Origin: Bacilli bacterium
GTDB lineage: Bacteria > Bacillota_I > Bacilli_A > RF39 > UBA660
Length of the DNA stretch: 37,608 nucleotides
Assembly (NCBI GenBank): GCA_017525035.1
Contig: JAFXTH010000009.1
Location: 1-37,608, forward strand
Direction: 5' to 3'
The notes under the pieces are model-generated. The model was not told where the DNA came from, did no database searches, and worked only from the letters and a program-made list of their open reading frames with translations. Made by a program: the position numbers and the translations under genes. Shown here piece after piece: positions 1,416-17,292 of the stretch (positions within the stretch are counted from its first letter, which is position 1; each line of letters opens with the position of its first letter).

Positions 1416-1452
1416 TAAATTATAATAATAAAAAAATAATATGAGGTGTTTT

Positions 1453-3009
1453 ATGAAAAAAAAGAAATATTTAATAATATCAGCAATTATAGTAGCAGTA
1501 GCATTATTAACTATAGGAATTATTTTATTAGTTTTTAATAATAAAACAACTACTGAGAATAAAAATCAATTAAAAGAATTGCCAAAACCTGAAATTACCG
1601 GTGGATCAAGAGGAGAACTTGGAATAGACAAAAATATAAACGAGAAAACAATTGATGAATATTTATATAGAGAAGATTCAGTTTATAGAGACATGAGAAT
1701 GTTAGAAGATCCAGGTAATTATGAAGCAATAGGTGGTGATCGTTTCTTATCTGGTTACGTTGATGGATTTGAGGTAATACCACTACCATATATAATTCCT
1801 GTTAAAGGATTACCAAAAGAGGTTGGTGATACTTATACTGGTACAACATTATTTTATGAGGAAAATGGAACTTACATAGCTAATTATGAAGAGTCTATGA
1901 GTATCATTGAAAAAATCTTTCCAAAAGATAAAGCGATATTTTTGATGTGCGGTGGCGGTGGCTATGCAGGCATGACTAAAAACTTTTTAGTATCTTTAGG
2001 ATGGGATGAAAATAAAATTTATAATACTGGTGGATACTGGTACTATGAAGGAAAGCATAACATAAACGTAAAAAAAGATAACAATGGAGTCGTATCTTAT
2101 GACTTTGATAAAGTACCATATCATAAGATAGACTTTGACAAGTTAACAAAAACTTCAAATTATAAAAATCCCGAAATAAAAGTTAGTGAATTAAAAATTA
2201 ACACTTCTAATTTAGTATTAGAAGAAGGTACATCTTTTCAATTAAACGTAATTGTATTACCAAATGCTGCAACTAATAAAAAAGTAAAATGGTCAAGTAG
2301 TAATGAAAAAATAGCTGTAGTAACAGATACTGGTTTGGTTAAAGCTATTGGAAATGGTAAAGCCACAATAAAAGTAGAATCTGTAGATGGTAATAAATCA
2401 GTTACATGTGATGTTGTTGTTAGTAAAAAAATAGTAAGTACTCGTATTGAATTGGATGATGTTTCTCATGAAAATAGAGAACTATTATCATATGATTTGT
2501 CTAAGCTTAGTAAAGAGTTTGAGGATAAGACTAATTTATTAACAGATGCTGATGGTAACTTTATACCAAATAAGTATTATGATCTTGCTCCTGATGGAGA
2601 AGGATATGTTGTAAATGATTTATGGAGAGAAGAATACAAAAAGTTTGGAGAACAATTTGAACAATATAAAAGTATGAGAGTAGAAATTTTTAATAAACTT
2701 ATAGAAGAAAAGAAATCTTTTATTATTTTAATTCATACTAAAGAATGCGAAGCAAGAGCTTATCCAGTAGTAGATGGTGCTGTGAAAATTCTAGAGCAAT
2801 ATAATTACTCATATATTGAACTAGGCAGTGCAGCATTAAATGGTGATACTACACTTGAAGATTCAAAATTAGATACAAGCAAGTTAGGGGATGGATCTGT
2901 TGCGATTGTTAAAGATGGGAAATTATATGCAACTATTAATTCAAATGTTGATTCAATAAAAAATGAGGGGGAATTAAGAGTTTGGCTTAGCAAGTATATT
3001 AATATATAA
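1453..3009 (+). CDS. Membrane-anchored rhodanese-like, Ig-like (Big_2) protein
   Basis: The start is placed at ATG 1453 because GAGGTG at 1444-1449 is well spaced for it; the ATG at 1441 has no site of its own. The 518-residue protein has a lysine start and one hydrophobic helix at about 6-27, so it should be anchored with the rest outside. Residues about 85-205 look like a rhodanese domain: the segment IFLMCGGGGYAGM (C166) sits where the active-site Cys loop is expected, although the usual Arg after Cys is absent. Residues about 242-323 form a bacterial Ig-like Big_2 domain (WSSSN, VKAIGNGKATIKV). Residues about 420-515 resemble a thioredoxin-like fold with a lone Cys in HTKEC. The function is unknown; sulfur or redox chemistry at the surface is only an inference. 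It stands alone between the tRNA terminator and a convergent terminator. Confidence 0.75.
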   Translation: MKKKKYLIISAIIVAVALLTIGIILLVFNNKTTTENKNQLKELPKPEITGGSRGELGIDKNINEKTIDEYLYREDSVYRDMRMLEDPGNYEAIGGDRFLSGYVDGFEVIPLPYIIPVKGLPKEVGDTYTGTTLFYEENGTYIANYEESMSIIEKIFPKDKAIFLMCGGGGYAGMTKNFLVSLGWDENKIYNTGGYWYYEGKHNINVKKDNNGVVSYDFDKVPYHKIDFDKLTKTSNYKNPEIKVSELKINTSNLVLEEGTSFQLNVIVLPNAATNKKVKWSSSNEKIAVVTDTGLVKAIGNGKATIKVESVDGNKSVTCDVVVSKKIVSTRIELDDVSHENRELLSYDLSKLSKEFEDKTNLLTDADGNFIPNKYYDLAPDGEGYVVNDLWREEYKKFGEQFEQYKSMRVEIFNKLIEEKKSFIILIHTKECEARAYPVVDGAVKILEQYNYSYIELGSAALNGDTTLEDSKLDTSKLGDGSVAIVKDGKLYATINSNVDSIKNEGELRVWLSKYINI

Positions 3010-11526: not shown

Positions 11527-13041
11527 ATGATTAATGTTTTAGAGTATTTAAATTTATCTTGTAATAGAAATCCAAATAAGATTGCAGTTATTGAAGAAGA
11601 TAAGAAGATAACTTATCAAGAATTAAATAATTGTTCTAAAATAGTTGGGTCTTTTTTGGCATCTAATAATATATTTAATGAACCAGTTGTAATATACATG
11701 GATAAGGGAATAGATGCTTTAATTTCTTTTTTTGGAGTAGTTTATTCATCATGTTATTATACTTTGATTAATCCAGAGTTTCCTTATGAAAGAGTTAATC
11801 AAATAATTGGAGTATTAAGTCCTAAATATGTTATTACTGATGATAAATATATAGAAAATGCTAAAGAGTATTTTAAAGATTCTAAGATATTTAATATTAA
11901 TGATTTGAAAAAAGAAAAGATTAATGAAGAAATGTTAAATCTTGCTAAGACTTATCATAATGATATTAATCCTTTGTATATAAACTTTACTTCAGGATCA
12001 ACTGGTGTTCCTAAAGGAGTAGTAATAGGGCATAAATCTGTTATTGATTTTATTGATAATTTTACTAAATTATTCAATTTCAATGAGGACGATATTATAG
12101 CTAACCAAGCACCATTTGATTTTGATGTTTCAGTAAAAGATATTTATAGTGCTATAAAAGTAGGAGCAACACTCGTAATTGTACCTAAAGCTTATTTCTC
12201 ATCTCCTGCAAAACTTTTGGATTACTTGTGTCTAAATAATGTTACAACGCTTACTTGGGCAGTATCAGCACTTTGTCTTATTACAACATTCCACGGACTT
12301 GATTACAAAGTACCAGATAAAGTAAATAAAATATTATTTAGTGGAGAAGTAATGCCTGTAAAGCATTTAAACATATGGAGAGATCATTTACCAAATACAA
12401 TGTTTGTTAATTTGTATGGACCTACTGAAATAACATGTAATTGTACTTATTACATAATAGATAACAAAAAAGAATACGACAAGATTCCAATAGGTAAAGC
12501 ATTCCCTAATGAAAAGGTATTCTTACTAGATAAAGATAATAAATTAGTTACAAAAAAGAATGAAGTTGGTGAAGTCTGTGTAGCAGGTACTTGTCTTGCT
12601 TTAGGATATTTTAACAACAAAGAACAAACAGATAAACATTTTGTACAAAATCCACTTGAGAAAAACTATAATGAGATGATTTATAAAACAGGTGACTTAG
12701 CATTCTACAACGATGATAATGACTTAGTATTTAACGGTAGAGTAGACTTTCAAATAAAATATCAAGGTCATAGAATTGAACTTGAGGAAATAGAAAAATC
12801 TATAATGGATTTTGATGAAGTAGAAAGAGCTTGCTGTATCTTTGAAGAAGAAAAATCAAAGTTATATGCCTTCTATGTAGGTAGTATTGATAAAAAAGAT
12901 TTGCATCTTAAATTAAAAGAAAAATTACCAGTATTTATGATTCCATCTAAACTAATTCAAATAGATGAATTCCCAATAAATAAAAATGGTAAAATAGATA
13001 GAAAAGTGTTATTATTAATGAAGGATGATAAACATGATTGA
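11527..13041 (+). CDS. dltA: DltA-like amino acid adenylating ligase
   Basis: This 504-residue ANL-superfamily enzyme should activate an amino acid with ATP and load it on the carrier protein encoded at 14206. Visible core motifs are the P-loop TSGSTGVPKG (155-164), YGPTE (297-301), KTGD (387-390), GRVDFQIKYQGHRIELEEIE and the catalytic lysine K489 in NGKIDRK. It has the length and operon setting of D-alanine carrier ligase DltA. Two pocket positions differ from what I recall of DltA. K204 sits in FDFDVSVKD where DltA has Met, and S272 sits in FSGE where DltA has the Cys linked to D-Ala selection. So the substrate may not be D-Ala. The stop overlaps the next start, showing translational coupling. 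Confidence 0.88.
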   Translation: MINVLEYLNLSCNRNPNKIAVIEEDKKITYQELNNCSKIVGSFLASNNIFNEPVVIYMDKGIDALISFFGVVYSSCYYTLINPEFPYERVNQIIGVLSPKYVITDDKYIENAKEYFKDSKIFNINDLKKEKINEEMLNLAKTYHNDINPLYINFTSGSTGVPKGVVIGHKSVIDFIDNFTKLFNFNEDDIIANQAPFDFDVSVKDIYSAIKVGATLVIVPKAYFSSPAKLLDYLCLNNVTTLTWAVSALCLITTFHGLDYKVPDKVNKILFSGEVMPVKHLNIWRDHLPNTMFVNLYGPTEITCNCTYYIIDNKKEYDKIPIGKAFPNEKVFLLDKDNKLVTKKNEVGEVCVAGTCLALGYFNNKEQTDKHFVQNPLEKNYNEMIYKTGDLAFYNDDNDLVFNGRVDFQIKYQGHRIELEEIEKSIMDFDEVERACCIFEEEKSKLYAFYVGSIDKKDLHLKLKEKLPVFMIPSKLIQIDEFPINKNGKIDRKVLLLMKDDKHD

Positions 13042-14203
13042 TTATAAGTATATTAAAGAAAAATATAATACACCATTGTTCGTTTATGATATTAACGTTT
13101 TACATGAAAGAATAAAATATCTAAAATCTAATTTCAATAAAAACTTTAACTTCGCTTATGCAGTTAAAGCAAATACTTTTATTATTAAAGAAACTGATTC
13201 TTTGGTAGAAAGATTTGAAATATGTTCACAAGGTGAATATGAGATTTGTGAAAAGTTAGGTATATCTAGAAATAAGATGGTTATATCTGGAGTTAATAAA
13301 GATAATGAATTCATTGAAGATTTAATATCTAAATATGATGATGTTTGCAAATACACTGTAGAATCTTATACTCAATATGAATTATTAAATGAATTAAGTG
13401 AAAAGTATAAAAGAAATATTAATGTATTAATTAGATTAACTAGTGGTAATCAGTTTGGTGTTAGCAAAGAATGTTTATTGAATATTATTAAAGAACATAA
13501 TAATAAATATTTAAATATTGATGGTATTGAGTTTTTTGCAGGAACTGAAAAACATTCACTAGCTATTATTGAAAAAGATATTAATTATATTAATGAACTA
13601 GTTAATGAAATTGAAAATGATTTAAAATTTGAAATAAAAGAAATTGAATATGGACCAGGACTTCCTGTGTTTTACTTTCAAAGTGATTCTTTTGATGAAG
13701 ATAGTTATTTGAATGATTTAAATAAATTAATTGAAAAGTTTGGTAATAAAAAGATTACATTAGAAGTAGGTAGAAGTATAGCAGCATCTTGTGGATCTTA
13801 TTTAACTAGTGTTGTTGATATAAAAGATAACAAGAATGGAAACTTCGTAATATTAGATGGTGGAATAAATCATCTTGTGTATTATGGTCAGATGATGGCT
13901 ATGAAGGTACCACACTTTGAAGTAATACCTGAAAAAGACAAAAATAAAGTAGTATATAACCTTTGTGGATCTTTATGTACTACAAATGATTTATTAATTA
14001 AAAATATAGAATTGAACGAATTAAGTATTGGTGATACATTTATATTTAAGAACACAGGTGCTTATTCTTCAACAGAAGGAATTGCACTATTCTTAAGTAG
14101 AGAATTACCTAAGGTAGTTCTAGTTAAAGATAATCATGATATATTAGTAAGAAATAATAATAAGACAAGTGTAATAAACTGTCCTAATTATGAGGAGGAG
14201 TAA
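13034..14203 (+). CDS. Fold-type III PLP decarboxylase-like enzyme in the dlt operon
   Basis: This 389-residue protein belongs to the fold-type III PLP family (diaminopimelate, ornithine and ACP-linked decarboxylases; alanine racemase is related). K45 in AYAVKAN is the cofactor lysine, GPGLPVFY at about 208-215 matches the phosphate-binding Gly loop, R247 sits in LEVGRSIAA, C315 in CGSLCTTND, and NTGAYSST is near residue 340. Unlike diaminopimelate decarboxylases, the GLHxHxGSQ segment is GIEFFAGTE and the CESGD motif is CTTND, so the usual substrate contacts have changed. It lies between ligase and carrier genes, as decarboxylases do in exosortase-associated and butirosin-type clusters. ATG 13034 is preferred (AAGG nine bases upstream). 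It may act on a carrier-bound or free amino acid; the substrate is unknown. Confidence 0.85.
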   Translation: MIDYKYIKEKYNTPLFVYDINVLHERIKYLKSNFNKNFNFAYAVKANTFIIKETDSLVERFEICSQGEYEICEKLGISRNKMVISGVNKDNEFIEDLISKYDDVCKYTVESYTQYELLNELSEKYKRNINVLIRLTSGNQFGVSKECLLNIIKEHNNKYLNIDGIEFFAGTEKHSLAIIEKDINYINELVNEIENDLKFEIKEIEYGPGLPVFYFQSDSFDEDSYLNDLNKLIEKFGNKKITLEVGRSIAASCGSYLTSVVDIKDNKNGNFVILDGGINHLVYYGQMMAMKVPHFEVIPEKDKNKVVYNLCGSLCTTNDLLIKNIELNELSIGDTFIFKNTGAYSSTEGIALFLSRELPKVVLVKDNHDILVRNNNKTSVINCPNYEEE

Positions 14204-14205
14204 AA

Positions 14206-14433
14206 ATGGATAAGTTAATCGAAATATTAGAGGAATTACAACCAGATGTAGATTATAATACTTGTGAAGATTTAGTGGATGGAAGACATTTAGATTCTTT
14301 AACAATATTATCTTTAATATCTGAAATTGAAAATGAATTTGATGTTGAAGTTCCTACAGTAGAAATAATTCCTGCAAATTTTAATTCTGCAAAAAGTATT
14401 TATGCATTAATTGAAAAATTAAAAGAGGAATAG
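14206..14433 (+). CDS. dltC: DltC-like acyl (aminoacyl) carrier protein
   Basis: The 75-residue acidic four-helix carrier has the attachment site HLDSL, with Ser31 expected to receive 4'-phosphopantetheine. It would hold the amino acid activated by the ligase at 11527 and hand it to the MBOAT acyltransferase encoded next. A strong GAGGAGG site precedes it, which fits the high expression carrier proteins need. The start is two bases after the decarboxylase stop. An AcpS-type transferase able to activate it is encoded at the end of the cluster. Size and position are typical of DltC, but sequence alone cannot say whether D-Ala is the cargo. Confidence 0.92.
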   Translation: MDKLIEILEELQPDVDYNTCEDLVDGRHLDSLTILSLISEIENEFDVEVPTVEIIPANFNSAKSIYALIEKLKEE

Positions 14434-14434
14434 A

Positions 14435-16012
14435 GTGTCATATTTTGATTTATGGTTTGCTTTTTTATTCGTACCAGTAGTTGTATTAATATTCCTACTT
14501 GTACCTAAGAAAGCAAAACCATATATTTTATTATTTGCTAGTTATGCAATATTTTTTATGGTAAGTAATTTCCTTATCATATTTTTATTGCTATCTACAA
14601 TATCTATATTTCTTGCAGGAAAGAAGTTTAAAAAACTCGATGGTGAAAAAGCCAAAGAGTTAGAAAAAGAAGATATAGATAAAAAACTTATTAAAGAAAA
14701 ATATAAGAAAAAGAAGAAACATATTTTAGTGTTAGTAATACTATTTAATATTTCTTTTCTATTTGTATTTAAGTATTTAAAGTTTTTTACTATTAATTTA
14801 AATGCAATACTTAAAGTATTTAAATTAGAAGAATTATCTATTATTAGTTTAATAGCTCCTTTAGGAATATCTTATTATACTTTAAAAGCTATATCTTATG
14901 TTGTTGATACTTATAATGGAAAGATTGAAGCAGATGACAATTTTGTTAGGCTTGCTTTGTATGTGTCATTTTTTCCACAAATTATGGAAGGACCAATATC
15001 AACTTATAGTGAAACAGCAGAACAAATATATAATGCTTCTAAAGTAACTTATCATAACTTTTGTTATGGATACCAAAGAATCTTATTTGGATTTTTTAAA
15101 AAATTAATTATTGTTGATAGATTAAATATTTTAGTTAAACAAGTATTTAATAATTATATGAGTTTTAATGGATTATCTATCTTAATTGGAATTATATCTT
15201 ATACGATGCTTCTTTATATGGAGTTTTCAGGTACTATGGATGTAGTACTAGGTATTGGAGATATATTTGATATTAAGATTCCAGAAAACTTTAGACAGCC
15301 ATTCTTTTCAAAAAATATAACTGACTTTTGGAGTAGGTGGCATATTAGTTTAGGTCATTTCTTAAAAGATTATGTATTCTATCCAGTATCTTTATCTAAA
15401 CCGTTAAAAAAATTATCAGTTAGTTTAAGAAAAAAGTTAAGTGCACATTATAGTTCATTAATAGCAGGTGGTATTGCACTTTTCTGTGTATGGTTTTTAA
15501 ATGGATTATGGCATGGAGCAGGATGGCCATTCTTATTCTTTGGAATGTATCATTTTGTTTTAATACTTATGGGTAATATATTTGAACCATTAATTATTAA
15601 GATATGTGCTAAATTAAAGATAAATAGAGAAAGTAAGAAGTACTATGGATTCCAAATTGTCAAAACATCACTTTTGGTATTTATTGGTGAAATGTTCTTT
15701 AGAGCTGATACTGTAAGAGATGGACTTAGAATGCTAAAGATTATGTTTACTAAGATGTTTGTACTTTCTAAGAATGAATTTTACTATTTTGGCTTAGATA
15801 TGTTTGATGTAGCATTAATCTTTATTGGATTAATAGTAGTATTAGTAATAAGTATTTTAAAAGAAAATAATGTTAATGTAAGAGATGAAGTAGAGAAGAA
15901 ACACATTATAGTTAGATGGGCAATTTATTATTTGTTAATTCTTTCTATTATTGTATTAGGAGCATATGGGCCAACTTACGCACCAGTTGATCCAATATAT
16001 GCTGATTTTTAG
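14435..16012 (+). CDS. dltB: DltB-like MBOAT acyltransferase
   Basis: This 525-residue polytopic membrane protein has about ten helices. It carries the MBOAT signature: FWSRWHISL (H303) and the catalytic histidine H360 in NGLWHGAGW. DltB takes the aminoacyl group from the loaded carrier at the cytoplasmic face and passes it across the membrane toward teichoic acid. A long Lys/Glu-rich insertion at about 63-96 lies between the second and third hydrophobic regions and is larger than I expect for DltB. The start is GTG 14435, one base after the dltC stop, with AGAGGAA eight bases upstream. Confidence 0.93.
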   Translation: MSYFDLWFAFLFVPVVVLIFLLVPKKAKPYILLFASYAIFFMVSNFLIIFLLLSTISIFLAGKKFKKLDGEKAKELEKEDIDKKLIKEKYKKKKKHILVLVILFNISFLFVFKYLKFFTINLNAILKVFKLEELSIISLIAPLGISYYTLKAISYVVDTYNGKIEADDNFVRLALYVSFFPQIMEGPISTYSETAEQIYNASKVTYHNFCYGYQRILFGFFKKLIIVDRLNILVKQVFNNYMSFNGLSILIGIISYTMLLYMEFSGTMDVVLGIGDIFDIKIPENFRQPFFSKNITDFWSRWHISLGHFLKDYVFYPVSLSKPLKKLSVSLRKKLSAHYSSLIAGGIALFCVWFLNGLWHGAGWPFLFFGMYHFVLILMGNIFEPLIIKICAKLKINRESKKYYGFQIVKTSLLVFIGEMFFRADTVRDGLRMLKIMFTKMFVLSKNEFYYFGLDMFDVALIFIGLIVVLVISILKENNVNVRDEVEKKHIIVRWAIYYLLILSIIVLGAYGPTYAPVDPIYADF

Positions 16013-16020
16013 GAGGGGTT

Positions 16021-16950
16021 ATGAAGAATTTATTTAAAAGTATTTGTTTTATCTTAATTTTTCTAGTTCTTCTATCAGTATCAGTATTTATTCTCTTACC
16101 AAAACAAAATTTATTTAAATATAGTTTCCTTAACTTCTTGGATTATGAAATCCTAGAAGAAGAGGATAATAAAGTAGACGTTTTATTTGTAGGTGATAGT
16201 CTAGTCTATAACTCTGTATCACCAATGGAAATATGGAATGAATTTGGTATAACATCATTTGACTGTTCAACACCAGCACAGCTTACGGAAACAAGTTATG
16301 AATATATTAAAATAGCAGTTGAAAGACAACACCCAAAAGTAATATTTTTGGAGGCTAACGTTTTATTCCGTGATCCAAAAAATAGAACTAGTGAAAGAAA
16401 ATTAAAAGATTTTTATGATAGATATTCCATATTAGATGATTATCATGATAATTGGAAAGACTTATTAGAATATGGAAAACCACTTAATGTTAATAAAGGT
16501 TATTATTATGTTAATAGAGTAAATAAAGCAGAAGTATTTAATTATATGCAGAATAGACATAAGTCTATTAAAATACCTAAAGTTAATGTTTTATATTTTG
16601 AAAAAATATTAGACATATGTAGAGAAAATAATATTAAACTTATCTTATTTGGAATTCCAAGTATGAAAAGTTGGAGTTATGAAAAAGATAGAATGGCTAC
16701 TGCTTTTGCAGAAGAATATAATCTAGAGTTTATTGATCTTAACTTAGTTGAAGAAATAAGAATCGATTGGAGAACTGAAACAAAGGATGAAGGAAGTCAC
16801 TTAAATTATGAAGGCGCAAAAAAAGTTTCCAGTTATTTAGGAAACTATATTAAACAAAATAATTTAGTTACTTCACATAAAGATGATCCAAACTATGATG
16901 ATTGGAATGAATCATATAGAAAGTATTCTAAACAATTACAATTCTATTAA
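16021..16950 (+). CDS. dltD: DltD-like SGNH-fold protein
   Basis: The 309-residue protein has an N-terminal membrane helix (about 5-27) and an outside SGNH-like domain. The nucleophile motif is VLFVGDSLVYNS with Ser60, and the C-terminal acid/His block is KDEGSHLNYEG around residues 255-264. DltD acts outside the membrane in the last step of transferring the amino acid to lipoteichoic acid. It is shorter than B. subtilis DltD (about 390 residues) and closer in size to compact DltD-like members. A strong AGGAGGGG site and an 8-base gap place it in the same operon. Its last 15 bases overlap the end of the convergent acpS gene, and no terminator is visible between them. Confidence 0.85.
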   Translation: MKNLFKSICFILIFLVLLSVSVFILLPKQNLFKYSFLNFLDYEILEEEDNKVDVLFVGDSLVYNSVSPMEIWNEFGITSFDCSTPAQLTETSYEYIKIAVERQHPKVIFLEANVLFRDPKNRTSERKLKDFYDRYSILDDYHDNWKDLLEYGKPLNVNKGYYYVNRVNKAEVFNYMQNRHKSIKIPKVNVLYFEKILDICRENNIKLILFGIPSMKSWSYEKDRMATAFAEEYNLEFIDLNLVEEIRIDWRTETKDEGSHLNYEGAKKVSSYLGNYIKQNNLVTSHKDDPNYDDWNESYRKYSKQLQFY

Positions 16951-17292
16951 TACAATAGAAGTGGTAAAATTATCATCATGGGAGATTGATACACTTATAT
17001 TGTTGTTTGCATATAAACTATTTAGTTCATTATGAAGAACTATGTATGGAGCGTTATTCTCATCATGTATTATTTCAATATCTTTTAAGGAATAATTATT
17101 TATTCCTTTTTTTATTGCTTTTAAGAAAGCCTCTTTAGAACAAAATATGCCTGCAATAGTGCCATTGTAGTTATCTTTACTTTTTATATATTCTATTTCT
17201 TGTTCTGTAAAAGTATTATTCATAAAAGTTTCATTTTCTTTAATTTTTTCAAATCTATTATTATTTAGTAAATCTATTCCTACTGAATACAT
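16936..17292 (-). CDS. acpS: Holo-acyl-carrier-protein synthase (AcpS)
   Basis: A 118-residue AcpS-type phosphopantetheinyl transferase. The two metal and CoA-binding motifs are present: GIDL with D7 and CSKEAFLKAIKKG with E54. Typical family strands follow (DIEIIHDENNAPYIV, SVSISHDDNF). It moves phosphopantetheine from CoA onto the serine of carrier proteins. It is encoded convergent to the dlt-like operon, overlapping dltD by 15 bases, which suggests it serves the DltC-like carrier. It could equally be the cell's only AcpS for fatty-acid synthesis. GGAAGTGAT precedes ATG 17292. Confidence 0.92.
   Translation of the reverse strand: MYSVGIDLLNNNRFEKIKENETFMNNTFTEQEIEYIKSKDNYNGTIAGIFCSKEAFLKAIKKGINNYSLKDIEIIHDENNAPYIVLHNELNSLYANNNISVSISHDDNFTTSIVLIEL

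Follow-up and report, generated by a model that had tools for sequence, protein, structure and literature searches.

Teichoic acid D-alanylation determines the surface charge and how well cells resist cationic peptides, and we know of no Dlt variant in which the acyl group itself is produced on the carrier. In the dltXABCD system the MBOAT protein DltB relies on a separate microprotein, DltX, in which the tyrosine of an FXYXXF motif carries the acyl group, whereas the MBOATs of acetylation systems have FXYXXF at their own C-terminus and use acyl-CoA as donor, with no carrier (PMC12148441). In vicenistatin biosynthesis, 3-methyl-aspartate is attached to the carrier VinL by VinN, and this thioester has to be in place before VinO decarboxylates the amino acid (PMC11284099). 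Here we analysed a Dlt-like operon at positions 11527-17292 of a 37,608-nucleotide stretch of DNA from a Bacilli bacterium (contig JAFXTH010000009.1 of GCA_017525035.1; this whole stretch is called the window), in which a gene for a pyridoxal phosphate (PLP) enzyme lies between the ligase and carrier genes. Within an assembly of 1.25 Mb that is 88% complete, the window makes up contig C20, and its closest named relatives are uncultured Clostridium, Erysipelotrichaceae and Bacilli metagenome-assembled genomes.

The locus consists of five tightly packed genes on the forward strand and a convergent AcpS gene, and all six open reading frames (ORFs) are intact. Domains were called with Pfam and NCBIfam profiles, each bit score being set against the family cut-off, and the features are as follows.

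11527-13041, + strand: adenylating carrier-protein ligase, stand-alone, ANL family (AMP-binding domain match)
13034-14203 (ORF opens at 13025), + strand: fold-type III PLP decarboxylase-like enzyme (Orn_DAP_Arg_deC and Orn_Arg_deC_N matches)
14206-14433, + strand: carrier protein, 75 amino acids (PP-binding match)
14435-16012, + strand: MBOAT, 525 amino acids (MBOAT match; catalytic His360, and His303)
15992-16009, + strand: PIYADF hexapeptide at the MBOAT C-terminus (Tyr522), acyl-shuttle-like, resembling FXYXXF of PatA/DltX
16021-16950, + strand: SGNH-fold acyltransferase-like protein with an N-terminal membrane helix (Ser60, Asp256 and His260 invariant)
16936-17292, - strand: AcpS-type phosphopantetheinyl transferase, convergent (ACPS match)

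The ligase stop overlaps the start of the PLP gene at 13034 (ATGATTGA), and this start is more likely than the one at 13025, judging from the starts of homologues and an upstream AGGA. For the genes that follow, the ribosome-binding site lies in each case within or adjoining the stop of the preceding gene. A promoter and terminator scan of the region gave promoter-like sites in no greater number than in shuffled sequence, and no terminators.

Scanning GTDB with a single genome for each species gave 206 relatives, and the conservation counts given below refer to the best 80 of them; some contigs are cut short, and residue counts run from 77 to 80 per protein. The ligase and PLP genes were adjacent in 80/80 loci. 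These loci belong to Bacilli, Clostridia and one Eggerthellaceae, and wherever contigs allow, their gene order (ligase, PLP enzyme, carrier, MBOAT, SGNH protein) was near-invariant, with median gaps of -4, 13, 1 and 9 bp along the cassette. A sequence-only reading of this DNA had described a non-standard Dlt-like order and had counted the PLP enzyme as a full member of the operon, and both points hold well beyond the window. The pairwise distances of the ligase, PLP, MBOAT and SGNH proteins correlate at 0.66-0.79, indicating that these four proteins travel together, and the five-gene arrangement is beyond chance. PF02784 proteins of two kinds turned up in 79 relatives: true LysA in a few of them and, in seven members of the window's own family, a short divergent enzyme; this short enzyme stands in the same five-gene order in 7/7, with AcpS convergent in 6/7. 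The hosts are Erysipelotrichaceae and other Bacilli, Lachnospiraceae, Oscillospiraceae, Acetobacterium and the one Eggerthellaceae, and in an even draw across the phylum, with a stringent E cut-off, the PLP enzyme was found in 8/295 genomes. A few loci are rearranged, among them L113, where the SGNH gene is placed before the carrier. A histidine kinase was found near the cassette in 14/80 loci and an OmpR-type regulator in 12/80, the two adjoining it as a pair in about a dozen loci, which is a familiar setting for envelope charge systems. The gene combination was not found in the open-licence PMC literature and may have been described elsewhere; each part has a known relative, and it is the combination of parts that appears new.

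Like dltXABCD, the cassette has a stand-alone adenylating ligase, a small carrier, an MBOAT with DltB as its nearest solved relatives and an exported SGNH protein, with a surface aminoacyl ester as the likely product. It differs by the extra PLP enzyme, by a ligase without the D-Ala pocket, by an SGNH protein outside PF04914 and by a shuttle tyrosine on the MBOAT in place of DltX. The butirosin set BtrI/BtrJ/BtrK has a PLP decarboxylase of the same fold, BtrK, which acts on a carrier-bound acidic amino acid, but it belongs to a soluble antibiotic pathway without MBOAT or SGNH protein, and BtrJ is an ATP-grasp ligase. The exosortase A-associated TIGR03098/TIGR03099 ligase, decarboxylase and carrier trio, to our knowledge uncharacterised, consists of the same enzyme classes, with scores far below the cut-offs; an exosortase setting was neither sought nor seen for the cassette. 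PatA/PatB and the AlgI-type acetyltransferases share with the cassette an MBOAT with a C-terminal shuttle tyrosine and a membrane-anchored SGNH protein; they use acyl-CoA and no carrier (PMC12148441), whereas the evident donor of the cassette is a carrier protein. The VinN/VinO/VinL trio likewise combines an adenylation enzyme, a carrier and a PLP decarboxylase. In that trio decarboxylation on the carrier has been shown; it feeds a polyketide synthase, whereas the cassette has a membrane acyltransferase. The sequence-only reading offered the butirosin set as a precedent; VinN/VinO/VinL, which has an adenylation enzyme, is closer (PMC11284099).

We consider it probable that the operon carries out Dlt-like surface aminoacylation with in-line decarboxylation, an acidic amino acid being loaded, decarboxylated on the carrier and exported as an omega-aminoacyl ester. 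AcpS would arm the carrier with phosphopantetheine, and the stand-alone adenylation enzyme would activate the acidic amino acid, most likely L-Asp via its beta-carboxyl or L-Glu via its gamma-carboxyl, and load it on the carrier. Acting like BtrK and VinO, the PLP enzyme would bind the free alpha-amino group as an aldimine and strip off the alpha-carboxylate, so that the carrier would hold a beta-alanyl or gamma-aminobutyryl group as an omega-amino acyl thioester. When the VinN/VinO/VinL logic is applied here, this loaded carrier would be handed to the MBOAT and the SGNH protein. The MBOAT would take the acyl group from the carrier on the inner membrane face and move it to its own C-terminal tyrosine (PIYADF), and from there the serine of the membrane-anchored SGNH protein would take it on to a hydroxyl group on a surface polymer, with teichoic acid as the probable acceptor. 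The end product would be a cationic ester with a charge effect as in D-alanylation, carrying a different acyl group.

The ligase lies outside DltA: it scored 322 bits with AA-adenyl-dom (cut-off 317), 300 bits with the DltA profile (cut-off 560) and 204 bits with TIGR03098 (cut-off 592). Its pocket code reads D235 V236 K239 T278 L299 S301 L322 C330 N331 K517 (in the numbering of the window ligase D200, V201, K204, S272, C304, N305 and K489 for the positions so numbered). These positions were assigned by comparison with a GrsA sequence, with conserved motifs as a check, and position 331 was read as N from an ungapped alignment with an LgrA domain. D235, V236, K239, S301, C330 and K517 are identical in 80/80 ligases, and the other code positions vary conservatively, which makes it likely that all members of the cassette family use one substrate. 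K239, present in the pocket of 80/80, would suit an acidic substrate, which is a reasoned guess on our part; a glutamate code with K239 is DAKDLGVVDK. In DltA, L198 and C269 are the residues that receive D-Ala, and in VinN the residues for 3-methyl-aspartate are F231, S299, K330 and R331 (PMC11253843). The L198 and C269 positions are V and S in 80/80 cassette ligases, so that the D-Ala pocket is lacking, and S299 of VinN corresponds to S301 of the cassette ligase. The A236V exchange, found in all TycA variants evolved for a beta-amino acid, corresponds to V236, and the bulkier residues at 236 and 301 that are a trait of beta-amino-acid enzymes are present, as V236 and S301, in 80/80. A special kinship with LgrA, considered from a 392-bit match, was rejected, as this score is the sum of two domain matches of 175 and 215 bits.

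In the PLP enzyme, the PLP lysine K48 and the catalytic C318 and D322 are kept in 80/80. In a maximum-likelihood tree the 26 cassette enzymes formed one clade (Shimodaira-Hasegawa-like approximate likelihood ratio test, SH-aLRT, 99; stem 1.27 changes per site), which falls outside LysA, BtrK and SbnH and does not group with BtrK; the BtrK and SbnH sequences came from HMMER alignments, SbnH was on a long branch and VinO was left out. The enzyme is thus placed outside the ordinary diaminopimelate (DAP) decarboxylases. Several active-site segments resemble BtrK and SbnH: the CTxxD pattern (CTTND or CTIND) compares with their CTPxD, the stretch after GAY has their length, and the 'xFLSR' segment fits them in length and pattern. 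In the loop before QFG about 15 residues are deleted in comparison to LysA, BtrK and SbnH alike; this loop may be an active-site lid, and its loss could admit the carrier arm. The AlphaFold model (predicted local distance difference test, pLDDT, 90.5) had BtrK (7ru7) as its top PDB match in both Foldseek and VIA (Z 40.0, root-mean-square deviation 2.8, 382 aligned). With the exosortase-associated decarboxylase profile TIGR03099 the enzyme scored 151 bits (cut-off 478; cassette enzymes 151-178), so that the exosortase-associated precedent named in the sequence-only reading is similar only at a distance.

Some further homologues of the PLP enzyme were seen. Divergent fold-type III decarboxylase homologues in L012 (G019), L020 (G070) and L138 (G090) sit on very long branches and are neither LysA nor cassette enzymes. 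The Lachnospiraceae genome G086 has two homologues of the cassette enzyme, on C79 and C28, and the one on C79 (L070) falls within a group of Bacilli sequences in the tree, suggesting horizontal transfer. Fusions of the PLP enzyme with the carrier in L082, L093 and L115 were considered and rejected, the carrier being present in an overlapping frame; the 528-residue PLP frame of L115 is an overlong ORF.

The carrier is DltC-like yet below the DltC cut-off, and its phosphopantetheine serine, Ser31 (codon 14296-14298), is conserved in 78/78. The AcpS gene of the cassette is the only AcpS-type gene found in the assembly of the window. A ketoacyl synthase was found in 1/48 genomes of the window's family, and AcpS therefore has no obvious fatty-acid client there. 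AcpS-type genes were found in 6/7 cassette genomes of the family versus 2/41 of the others (Fisher p=1.5e-5, or 2e-4 when each genus counts once), a co-occurrence which ties AcpS to the cassette carrier. In the family as a whole (G000-G047) most genomes are without any AcpS-type or Sfp-type phosphopantetheinyl transferase, and together with the 47/48 genomes without ketoacyl synthase this suggests a loss of type II fatty acid synthesis. In two loci of the family (L122:1401-4463 on G000:C9 and L123:8394-10853 on G011:C19) the gene for a VanW-family protein precedes those for a DltA-like adenylation enzyme (350-399 bits) and a DltC-like carrier, and neither MBOAT nor DltD is encoded in the vicinity; an Sfp-type phosphopantetheinyl transferase divergently adjoins the G000 cluster. 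This cluster may serve as a second aminoacylation system. A second canonical dlt operon in the window's own genome, considered from a 350-bit DltA-like match, was rejected because the match belongs to such a VanW, adenylation enzyme and carrier cluster without MBOAT or DltD.

The MBOAT scored 136 bits with the DltB profile (cut-off 375), and among solved structures its profile matches only DltB (6bug, 8jem). The catalytic His360 and the Tyr522 of the C-terminal PIYADF are each present in 77/77, and a proline stands in place of the first F of FXYXXF. No DltX should be needed because the MBOAT carries its own shuttle-like tyrosine, and judging by these motifs the operon joins a carrier-protein donor to a shuttle-bearing MBOAT. 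The product of the fifth gene had no Pfam or NCBIfam match and thus lies outside PF04914 DltD; its model has an SGNH fold (pLDDT 92.5) with an N-terminal helix, and Ser60, Asp256 and His260 are present in 78/78. No DltD structure was among the 50 VIA matches listed for this model, and kinship with DltD is still possible. The 'DltB/DltD pair' of the sequence-only reading is a loose description, as the MBOAT has a PatA-type C-terminal shuttle tyrosine and its partner is outside Pfam DltD. Canonical DltD (PF04914) was found in 0/26 cassette genomes and above the cut-off in 0/79 relatives, and DltA over the cut-off in 0/26 cassette genomes; on the basis of the two 0/26 counts the cassette appears to replace canonical Dlt and not to be an addition to it. 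Two loci have an expanded export half: L109:2922-8434 holds an additional MBOAT/SGNH pair, the two pairs flanking the carrier as if serving two acceptors or steps, and L084 has four tandem SGNH genes (314-346 amino acids) downstream of the MBOAT.

Some observations weigh against loading of an acidic amino acid followed by decarboxylation on the carrier. The pocket code also resembles the serine code (DVWHLSLIDK), so that ordinary alpha-carboxyl activation is possible, and in that case the role of the PLP enzyme must differ from alpha-decarboxylation. The beta13-beta14 loop of the ligase aligns gap-free with the LgrA domain, and the one-residue shortening seen in VinN, with its K330 and R331, is absent. 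DAP decarboxylases tie with BtrK in VIA (Z 38-39.5), so that BtrK does not stand out by fold alone. In one genome, G002, the cassette (G002:C15, L025) lacks AcpS at the site, and no PF01648 protein was found in this 96% complete genome, which leaves the carrier without an evident activating enzyme. LtaS-type genes (PF00884) are present in most relatives, whether these carry the cassette or not, and they are therefore uninformative as a marker of the acceptor.

The order of the two chemical steps could also be reversed, with the PLP enzyme decarboxylating the free amino acid and the ligase then loading the finished omega-amino acid for the same export. IdnL3 has been reported to decarboxylate free beta-Glu before loading (PMC11284099), and V236 and S301 suit an omega- or beta-amino substrate. 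However, the nearest precedents in structure and setting, BtrK and VinO, act on the carrier-bound form, and an invariant pocket lysine would be surprising if the substrate had no second acidic group, so that we regard this order as unlikely, if conceivable.

An improbable alternative is that the PLP enzyme is a racemase or epimerase and that L-Ala or L-Ser is loaded and turned into the D form on the carrier, giving D-aminoacyl esters as in classical Dlt. Fold-type III includes alanine racemase, the enzyme gives a weak Ala_racemase_N match and the ligase code is serine-like. Alanine racemase (Alr) was also not found in the window's own 88% complete genome, in keeping with the sequence-only reading, which had seen no such gene nearby. 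However, a separate Alr is present in 23/26 cassette genomes, and for the family overall a role as sole alanine racemase was rejected on this ground. The C-terminal domain is of decarboxylase type and invariant, as are the catalytic Cys and Asp, and all 50 VIA matches listed for the model are decarboxylases or close homologues. The modified acyl group postulated from the sequence is best accommodated by decarboxylation on the carrier, and a simple racemase fits poorly.

It is very unlikely that meso-DAP enters through activation of one of its carboxyls and, once on the carrier, is decarboxylated at its other centre, which would give strongly cationic lysyl esters: the PLP sequence is closest to the DAP decarboxylase superfamily (182 bits to the lysA profile, cut-off 298), but the residues that bind the distal part of DAP are replaced in the family, the Glu of the LysA CESxD motif being lost in CTTND or CTIND and the Arg of the 'DLIRP' segment being lost where NHLVYYGQ replaces NDLIRP. 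That the enzyme is an ordinary degenerate LysA which happens to sit in a dlt operon has next to no chance of being correct and this identity was rejected, as the enzyme is indeed the only PF02784 protein of the window's genome, a warning sign raised in the sequence-only reading, but it forms a separate clade with changed active-site residues and a score below the lysA cut-off, its operon position is invariant, and most clostridial carriers of the cassette have their own lysA (267-460 bits).

Elsewhere in the window, positions 1441-3009 encode a 522-residue protein with a bacterial Ig-like (Big_2) domain, which resembles a repeat-rich gene in L035.

Carrier-bound decarboxylation followed by export may represent a third, widespread branch of surface acylation, in which a carrier-fed shuttle-tyrosine MBOAT works with an in-line carrier decarboxylase to place omega-amino acyl esters (beta-alanyl or gamma-aminobutyryl) on teichoic acids or another surface polymer, replacing D-alanylation in many gut Firmicutes; we put this forward as a plausible but tentative proposal. 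For the MBOAT-SGNH mechanism, the published pairing is of a carrier donor with a separate DltX and of acyl-CoA with a shuttle-bearing MBOAT (PMC12148441), whereas the cassette mixes a carrier with a shuttle-bearing MBOAT. By reasoning alone, an omega-amino ester should outlast a D-alanyl ester in stability. If the proposal is true, many gut and rumen Firmicutes would display an unrecognised cationic ester, and the hosts bearing it would include the cultured Catenibacillus scindens and Faecalicoccus pleomorphus.

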